Both the position numbers and the translations under genes were made by a program. A stretch of DNA of 56,613 bases from Betaproteobacteria bacterium (GTDB taxonomy: Bacteria > Pseudomonadota > Gammaproteobacteria > Burkholderiales > Burkholderiaceae_C): contig RFVJ01000002.1 in NCBI GenBank assembly GCA_009928125.1, positions 1-56,613 of the forward strand, read 5' to 3'. This document shows positions 7,730 to 15,877 of the stretch, piece by piece; the first letter of the stretch is position 1; the number at the start of each line of letters is the position of its first letter. Under the pieces are notes generated by a model. The model saw only the letters and a list, made by a program, of their open reading frames with translations, did no database searches and had not been told where the DNA came from.

Positions 7730-7884
7730 AAATAATTGGGGTCAGATCAACATTAATTTCTAATCAGTGAGGGCAGAGACAGAGGGGAGCTGAACGATTT
7801 CTGGTACCCCAGTATGAGGAAGCCCCCCTCTGTCTCTGCCCTCACTGATTAACAAAATTAATGTTGATCTGACCCCAATTATTT
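7730..7884. repeat. large hairpin element, copy 1 (conserved outer stem, 18-bp copy-specific inner stem, conserved apical core)
   Basis: AAATAATTGGGGTCAGATCAACATTAATTT(7730-7759) C TAATCA [GTGAGGGCAGAGACAGAG 7767-7784] 43-nt core(7785-7827) [CTCTGTCTCTGCCCTCAC 7828-7845] TGATTA ACA AAATTAATGTTGATCTGACCCCAATTATTT(7855-7884). Confidence 0.97.
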
Positions 7885-12652: not shown

Positions 12653-12695
12653 GGGGTCAGATCAACATTCATGTTGTGAATGTTGATCTGGCTCC
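12653..12695. repeat. mini-hairpin of the GGGGTCAGATCAACATT family
   Basis: GGGGTCAGATCAACATTCA-tgttg-TGAATGTTGATCTGGCTCC; fully paired as RNA when two G-U wobbles are allowed. Confidence 0.9.
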
Positions 12696-12715: not shown

Positions 12716-13597
12716 ATGTCCCAACTTTTAAGTGATACAGCGCGCAATCGCCAAGTAGGCATTGCGCTGGTCACTGTGACCACCTTGATGTTTGCGGTGC
12801 TCGACACCAGTGCCAAATGGTTGGTGCAAACGGTGCCCGTGTTGCAAGTGGTGTGGCTCAGGTTTGTGTTTCACACCTTGTTGACCACCGCCATTTTCAT
12901 GCCTTCGATGGGAGTGGCTTTGTTCAAAATTCACAATCCACGATTGCAATTGCTTCGTGGTGTGATGTTGGCCCTCATGACAGGGTTGAACTTTTTTGCA
13001 TTGCAGTATTTGCAATTGGCAGAAACGGGGGCAGTGCAATTTTCAGTGCCCATATTGATCGCGCTCATTTCCGCTGTGTGGTTGCATGAGCGGCTGGATG
13101 CCAAAAAATGGCTGGCCGTTTGCACAGGATTTGTTGGCGTACTGGTCATCATTCGGCCAGGCAGTCATGGCTTTCATCCCGCTATTTTGTTGAGCATCAT
13201 GAATGCCGTGCTATATGCAGCTTTCAATTTAATGACCCGCCGACTGGCTGGGAGCGATCATCCCATTTCGACCCAACTGGCTTCCGCCACTGTCCCATCT
13301 TTGTTGCTAGCCCCTTTTGCCATTGGGTACTGGGAGACGCCCGCGTCATGGCAAGTTTGGGGTGTCTTGGTTTTGGCGGGTTTAACAGGCGGTTTGGGCC
13401 ACACGGCCTCAGCACTGGCCCATCGATACGCCACAGCTGCGGTGCTCGGCCCCTTTTTGTATCAGCAAATCATTTACATGAGCTTGGGGGGCTGGCTTAT
13501 GTTTGGCCAAATTCCTGACGCTGCTGTTGTGCTGGGGGCGGGCATTGTTGTCCTGAGTGGCCTGTACCTTTTGTGGCGTGAATTCAACACCGAATAA
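12716..13597 (+). CDS. EamA/DMT-superfamily transporter
   Basis: Ten hydrophobic segments; two repeats with ...WLRFVFHTLLTT / LGAGIVVLSGLYLLWRE. Confidence 0.85.
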   Translation: MSQLLSDTARNRQVGIALVTVTTLMFAVLDTSAKWLVQTVPVLQVVWLRFVFHTLLTTAIFMPSMGVALFKIHNPRLQLLRGVMLALMTGLNFFALQYLQLAETGAVQFSVPILIALISAVWLHERLDAKKWLAVCTGFVGVLVIIRPGSHGFHPAILLSIMNAVLYAAFNLMTRRLAGSDHPISTQLASATVPSLLLAPFAIGYWETPASWQVWGVLVLAGLTGGLGHTASALAHRYATAAVLGPFLYQQIIYMSLGGWLMFGQIPDAAVVLGAGIVVLSGLYLLWREFNTE

Positions 13598-13745
13598 TTG
13601 GGGTCAGATCAACATTAATTTCTAATCAAAGGGGTTTAAGGCTTAGGGGGGCTGAACGATTTCTGGTACTCCAGTATGAGGAAGCCCCCCTAAGCCTTAA
13701 ACCCCTTTGATTAACAAAATTAATGTTGATCTGACCCCAATTATT
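13593..13745. repeat. large hairpin element, copy 2
   Basis: AATAATTGGGGTCAGATCAACATTAATTT C TAATCA [AAGGGGTTTAAGGCTTAG 13629-13646] core 13647-13689 [CTAAGCCTTAAACCCCTT 13690-13707] TGATTA ACA AAATTAATGTTGATCTGACCCCAATTATT. Confidence 0.97.
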
Positions 13746-14385
13746 TTTCTATCTCAACCATGATTTCATTGCGCCTGAACATGGGCAAGGTCCAAGGTGG
13801 GTCGTAGCGCGAGAGTTGAGGGGCTCCAATGACTTTGAAGTTTTTTTGCTGCAACCATGCCATCAGTTCATCGGTTTTGCTTTGAACTTTGGCCAGGGTG
13901 TTGAAGCCGGTGTAACTGTGAACGGCCATCAACTTGCCGGGTACTTCTTTGAGCTTCACTTCAGGATTGTTGGGTTGAGGCAAGGTGCTCAGGGTGTACT
14001 GGGCAGGCATCACAAAATGTACTCGCCACAGTTTGGCTTCTCGCATGTCATTGATGACCGCGCTCATGGTGACCGGCGCTGTCATGGCTATTTTTTCAGA
14101 TTGTGGCTCAACCGTGACAGGTGCTGTCATTGCAATTTTGGCGCTGTTGCCAGATTGCGCAGCACGGTTGTTACCAAAAATATAGTCTGCGATGCGACGA
14201 AAACCTTTGTTTGAAGCTTCGTCCATGTCGCCTTCAACCATCGTTTCTGCAACGAGGATGGGTGCGTACTGTCGGACTTCAAAGGGCTCGGACTTCAGGG
14301 TGACTTTGAATGCAGGTTCTTCGATGGCCATGGCTGTTTGCCCCATCATGAAAGTGGTCATCAGAAATAAGGTTCGGAAATTCAT
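13741..14385 (-). CDS. SOUL-family heme-binding protein, exported
   Basis: EEPAFKVTLKSEPFEVRQYAPILVAETMVEGD...KIAMTAPVT repeated motif. Confidence 0.9.
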   Translation of the reverse strand: MNFRTLFLMTTFMMGQTAMAIEEPAFKVTLKSEPFEVRQYAPILVAETMVEGDMDEASNKGFRRIADYIFGNNRAAQSGNSAKIAMTAPVTVEPQSEKIAMTAPVTMSAVINDMREAKLWRVHFVMPAQYTLSTLPQPNNPEVKLKEVPGKLMAVHSYTGFNTLAKVQSKTDELMAWLQQKNFKVIGAPQLSRYDPPWTLPMFRRNEIMVEIEK

Positions 14386-15806: not shown

Positions 15807-15853
15807 GGCTGTGCCGGATGAAATGAGGGGACTACATTCTCTCATTGGCATGC

Positions 15854-15877
15854 AATTAATTGTGATCTGACCCCAAT
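15854..15877. repeat. solo arm of the GGGGTCAGATC element family
   Basis: AATTAATTGTGATCTGACCCCAAT, near-match to the right arm AATTAATGTTGATCTGACCCCAAT. Confidence 0.8.

Follow-up and report, generated by a model that had tools for sequence, protein, structure and literature searches.

The window, a stretch of 56,613 nucleotides from a freshwater betaproteobacterium, contains two near-perfect palindromes of 155 bp, at positions 7730-7884 (copy 1) and 13592-13746 (copy 2), both built of 30-bp outer arms, an internal loop in which C stands opposite ACA, 31-bp inner arms and a directional core. Convergent genes flank each copy, encoding an NtaA/DmoA-type monooxygenase and a class II aldolase around copy 1 and an EamA transporter and a SOUL protein around copy 2. 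The outer arms of copy 1 (7730-7759 and 7855-7884) pair at 30/30 positions; each has an A/T-rich end (7730-7737 on the forward strand, 7877-7884 on the reverse strand) that differs from copy to copy but pairs with its partner, and a TIR, GGGGTCAGATCAACATTAATTT, at 7738-7759 (forward) and 7855-7876 (reverse), the same sequence that flanks the Y1 transposase gene on contig C115 of this genome. Inward of the TIRs is the 1x3 loop, with its short strand (C) at 7760 and its long strand (ACA, or TGT when reverse-complemented) at 7852-7854, followed by the inner arms at 7761-7791 and 7821-7851, which pair at 30/31 positions, with a single A.C mismatch within GGGGAGCT, and which include the segment V18 (7767-7784, paired with 7828-7845). 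The stem is capped by a core, or head, CGATTTCTGGTACCCCAGTATGAGG (7795-7819), which also caps unrelated stems and whose inner 4-bp stem covaries; loop, inner arms and head are all given on the forward strand.

Copy 2 has the same layout, with TIRs at 13600-13621 (forward) and 13717-13738 (reverse) and, on the forward strand, loop strands at 13622 (C) and 13714-13716 (ACA), inner arms at 13623-13653 and 13683-13713, paired at 31/31 positions, and a head, CGATTTCTGGTACTCCAGTATGAGG, at 13657-13681. The asymmetry of C against TGT and the shared orientation of the two copies in the window are thus as originally predicted. Folding energies are -110.8 kcal/mol for copy 1 (z -18.5) and -109.8 kcal/mol for copy 2 (z -17.1). 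The window also holds a short intergenic palindrome of two facing, nearly abutting TIRs without a core (GGGGTCAGATCAACATTCATGTTGTGAATGTTGATCTGGCTCC, 12653-12695, forward strand) and a solo TIR end (15853-15874, reverse strand), whereas shuffled sequence gives an expectation of 0 TIR matches by chance. The 18 bp next to the loop had been described as changing completely while remaining paired: every difference between GTGAGGGCAGAGACAGAG and AAGGGGTTTAAGGCTTAG is indeed two-sided (compensated), but just 10/18 columns differ and 8/18 are identical.

The host genome (G000) carries three more full copies (on C413, C323 and C250), many solo ends and 20 occurrences of the exact TIR 22-mer, along with interrupted copies on C236 (L031) and C169 (L030). 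In the two interrupted copies the head has been replaced by a shorter element of about 80 bp, which has the same TIRs but differs in its interior and sits where the core would be; the two cases have a common junction, CTGACAATAAATGGGG. The genome has a single Y1_Tnp gene (C115:1054-1752; 233 aa; Pfam 7e-12, 46 bits against a cut-off of 23), which has an HFH motif and is bracketed by GGGGTCAGATCAACATTAATT, which lies at -43, and by the inverse of that sequence, which lies at +91; in most of the relatives scored, the Y1 gene has GGGGTCAGATC ends near -46/+46. The exact 22-mer is present in 25/91 genomes of the genus, dispersed and often in facing pairs, and the genomes that hold it also have it at their own Y1 gene (e.g. 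G001:696075). Published TIRtrons/TIRYTs consist of long inverted repeats with the motif GGGGWSAS around a Y1/HUH gene (Di Nocera et al. 2013, PMC3733652; PMC6006769), and their transposases are assigned to TnpA-Y1 subclass 2.1 (PMC6006769), as described in the available parts of these accounts. The inverted repeats flanking the present Y1 gene, GGGGTCAG, fit GGGGWSAS, the genome has its Y1/HUH gene, and the TIRs are dispersed, often as facing dimers. Judged by sequence, the hairpin is a TIR element of the TIRtron/TIRYT kind, an assignment made because the Y1 gene has the same ends, the published layout and motif agree, and the 22-mer is dispersed.

Against the NCBI RAYT model NF047646 the transposase scores 77 bits, under the cut-off of 80, and so we regard it as a RAYT relative and not a textbook RAYT. 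A doublet hairpin with compensatory spacer changes, by which REPINs are recognized, is present; the GTAG-type tetranucleotide and short REP hairpin were not found at the ends, which consist of an A/T-rich 8-mer plus GGGGTCAGATC, and no hairpin was seen within the TIR by inspection. A classical DDE-type MITE was rejected, as the border words are inverted complements and not direct repeats (that is, there is no direct target-site duplication). When an empty site was compared for target duplication, the element-less relative (G065, L252) proved to have a rearranged spacer. No plasmid match to the element was found.

The covariation called for by the original prediction was scored by counting paired and two-sidedly changed columns in 24 gap-free elements, with shuffled and slid controls. 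Paired cells amount to 98.8%, two-sided changes occur in 22/57 pairs, and the score of 0.280 compares with 0.085 (sd 0.007) in the shuffled control and at most 0.056 in the slid one. Inner arms differ at 0.74/31 positions within an element and at 8.1/31 between elements. Two-sided variation extends beyond the inner stem: it is found in the TIR itself (T-A to G-C, columns 10/130) and in the 8-9 A/T-rich bases outside it, and mean contiguous pairing of the outer arms is 7.7, against 4.06 with shuffled partners. At three loci (L064+, L165+ and L050-) pairing reaches 14-29 bases into the flanking DNA, which is what extension of the palindrome by fold-back copying would give. At two others (L058, G033:C24; L061, G076:C551), both close to the start of a contig, 57-60 bases of the flanks belong to the palindrome, which may reflect either genuine fold-back copying or a fold-back artefact of assembly.

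The orthologous set comprises 78 cross-genome pairs in 11 groups, with both flanks clearly homologous; the pairs are not independent, since they fall inside groups of common ancestry, and the relatives sampled are mostly MAGs, with some loci assigned to one genome by the length of their contigs. Mean flank identity is 0.85, while stem similarity is only 0.74, not far from the 0.71 seen among unrelated copies; the orthologous stems, though different, are paired again. Relative to the site, 28/78 pairs show an inverted core (the loop unmoved in 11 of them and flipped in 12), and both core orientations are found in at least seven groups. In L073/L078, for example, the flanks are 96 and 93% identical and V is 96% identical, and core and loop are both flipped; in L097/L145 (V 92%) the core is flipped and the loop is not. 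A directional core had been held to argue against arm copying, a claim that these inversions do not support.

Misassembly of palindromes as the source of both flips and stem differences is very improbable. The very long palindromes of L058 and L061 may be fold-back assemblies, but flips and stem replacement also occur among copies from Limnohabitans sp. Rim11 (G032), G006 and MMS-10A-178 (G001), which we take as non-metagenome genomes (G006 solely because it is a single contig). Among the seven orthologous pairs from these genomes, five have the same orientation, with stems that differ and are (nearly) perfectly paired, and two are inverted (L309/L328 and L313/L327); in L313/L327 the core is flipped and the side of the loop relative to the flanks is unchanged.

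A weightier alternative, which we consider possible though clearly short of an even chance, is that a site's whole element is swapped, by recombination between TIRs or by excision and reinsertion, so that stems and orientation are reshuffled with no copying of arms in place. Nearly half of the elements (22/45) resemble some paralogue of the same genome more closely than they do any orthologue, L122/L141 and L062/L153 have stems in common inside a genome, at the same two sites, and L076 has identical stems at two sites. Such swapping does not readily account for two-sided change in the outer arms, beyond the homology of the TIRs, or for inversions at single sites whose stems retain 92-96% identity (L073/L078 and L097/L145). 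Conservation of sites could in part reflect repeated insertion at preferred sites.

Invariance of the 1x3 loop was surveyed by aligning the two arms of each element from the relatives and re-scoring 86 element records. Scripted calls placed the long strand on the 3' side of the core in 49 and on the 5' side in 28, with nine undecided; after these nine were read by eye, the counts became about 51 (3') and about 32 (5'), and the loop was erased in three. The asymmetry is thus kept in about 83/86 records, and the loop is nearly universal; the core is conserved across copies, and both results are in keeping with the original prediction. The side of the loop relative to the core is not fixed, however, and the loop can be erased: L087 and L125 have two long arms and L063 two short ones, while the relatives at the L087 site (L059, L183 and L220) retain it. 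The loop is therefore not strictly invariant, and the argument that loop and core speak against arm copying is not supported. A switch within the inner stem does not touch the loop outside it; survival of the loop is then expected, and is no argument against homogenization.

The mismatches left in the arms are strongly asymmetric between strands. In elements with TIRs, G.T on the core-forward strand outnumbers G.T on the other strand by 20 to 8 (6 clusters against 0), a bias that is modest when these elements are taken alone (p = 0.036); in core hairpins without TIRs the counts are 59 and 8 (22 stem clusters against 1). Copying alone would leave strand-symmetric mismatches, so this bias points to selection on one folded strand; it is probably in folded, single-stranded form that this strand is read. 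The original prediction was right, then, that passive homogenization is not the sole force, selection acting on one folded strand as well, and its interpretation overall is partly supported. The strand-biased G.T intermediates, like the conserved head and loop, would also suit the history that it implied, in which the arms mutate independently, selection on the fold fixes second-site changes and no arm is ever copied. We think this unlikely: it is already disfavoured by the core inversions within conserved flanks, which it cannot yield, and it can produce neither erasure of the loop to two identical arms nor the two-sided changes in TIRs and outer arms.

Tolerance of G.T pairs on one strand could also mark a transcribed hairpin that regulates or protects mRNA, with the head bound as RNA, and placement at gene ends would fit (hairpins without TIRs occur, among other places, between genes of a box operon). 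Orientation toward transcription is even, however (8:8 and 40:37), there is no terminator-like tail, and no Rfam family emerges: five head-bearing loci gave no match at the gathering threshold save a tRNA, and the element and one TIR-less pair gave sub-threshold chance matches of long hairpins, mostly to miRNA models. An RNA function is accordingly a doubtful explanation, if slightly less so than purely compensatory change. Since copies between tandem genes are sense in eight cases and antisense in eight, and 35/60 copies lie between convergent genes, DNA is favoured over mRNA, and on the simplest view the folded strand is read as single-stranded DNA, whether by the transposase or by some other factor.

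The 25-nt head has the form C-GATTT-stem-TACY-stem-YATGA-G and contains a 5x5 internal loop that is nearly invariant: GATTT and YATGA are invariant or nearly so, while the apical stem covaries (C-G/G-C, T-A/C-G/G-C), as do the closing bases. It also tops stems unrelated to those of the element (35 stem clusters), and these TIR-less hairpins usually form divergent pairs 100-300 bases apart, one example being the genus's box operon. Twelve or more genera of a single family carry the head (12/141 of those sampled); no match was found among the sampled genomes outside that family or in viral contigs, and the exact core strings did not appear in the literature searched. Arrays of divergent head-hairpin pairs, spaced about 1-5 kb between unrelated genes, were seen at L230 (G001:C1:826000-838000), L241 (G021:C77) and L278-L282 (G214); G214 has 27 forward and 27 reverse head copies, a REP-dimer-like arrangement, but no Y1 gene with the motif. 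At L232-L247 (gene names read off the protein sequences) head-hairpin pairs lie between boxB and boxA or beside a CoA-transferase-like gene, an intergenic position that they occupy in many genomes of the genus, which suggests long residence.

Three known identities were set aside for the core and its TIR-less hairpins. Cores are not the ends of a second Y1 gene, as the 3.3-kb Y1 loci of four core-bearing genomes of other genera lack them; CGTC REPs have 8-9-bp stems and 4-5-nt loops; and integron attC sites were considered because of the GTTGAGT/GCTCAAC stem ends of some hairpins, in which, by inspection, the boxes are in the reverse layout. The element appears to have captured the head hairpin, and we infer the direction of this capture. 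Tentatively, and with the balance of probability somewhat against it, the head may be a new strand-specific structured motif, recognized as a folded single strand by a putative factor and carried, in divergent pairs, by stems that can be exchanged for one another throughout a single betaproteobacterial family; a TIRYT element would have captured this motif, and would spread it and allow it to flip.

Considering these observations together, we favour, with reasonable though not full confidence, a non-autonomous TIRYT element with a captured head, whose arms are copied by template switching, whose copies exchange stems, and whose fold is under selection. The hairpin would be mobilized, now or formerly, by the chromosomal Y1/HUH "TIRYT" transposase carrying GGGGTCAG... 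inverted ends. Template switching at replication would copy the arms from each other and so mainly keep their complementarity, turning one-sided mutations into two-sided ones; a switch falling in the inner stem would invert the core and usually spare the loop, which lies outside that segment. Selection keeping the core-forward strand foldable would leave mostly core-forward G.T wobbles as the surviving one-sided changes. Template switching would explain the two-sided changes, the core inversions, the erased loops and the pairing of flanking bases. Exchange of stems between copies can mimic change in place, and both processes probably contribute. The element offers a natural record for telling apart fold selection and arm copying, two easily confused causes of perfect palindromes: separate processes are tracked by the loop, by the directional core and by the strand-biased mismatches, and many species have these sites occupied. 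It also cautions that covariation in an inverted repeat does not in itself prove selection for an RNA or DNA structure.

With TIRtrons/TIRYTs (PMC3733652; PMC6006769) it shares a Y1/HUH gene within long GGGGWSAS inverted repeats and dimers dispersed genome-wide, and it differs in its variable inner stem, 1x3 loop and captured head, an interior not described in the available parts of those accounts. REPINs, or RAYT-linked REP doublets (Bertels and Rainey 2011, PMC3116915), similarly form one long hairpin from an inverted doublet, with conserved ends, a variable spacer with compensatory changes and one transposase gene with the same ends; the present element is longer, lacks a GTAG-type foot, ends in GGGGTCAG TIRs and has a transposase below the RAYT equivalog cut-off. 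Template switching between inverted-repeat arms is reported to homogenize arms and invert spacers (PMC8604942), and there too arms are made identical and the spacer is inverted among relatives; that account concerns short repeats in yeast coding genes, whereas the present case is a bacterial element that is dispersed, has inner arms of 31 bp and bears its loop outside them.
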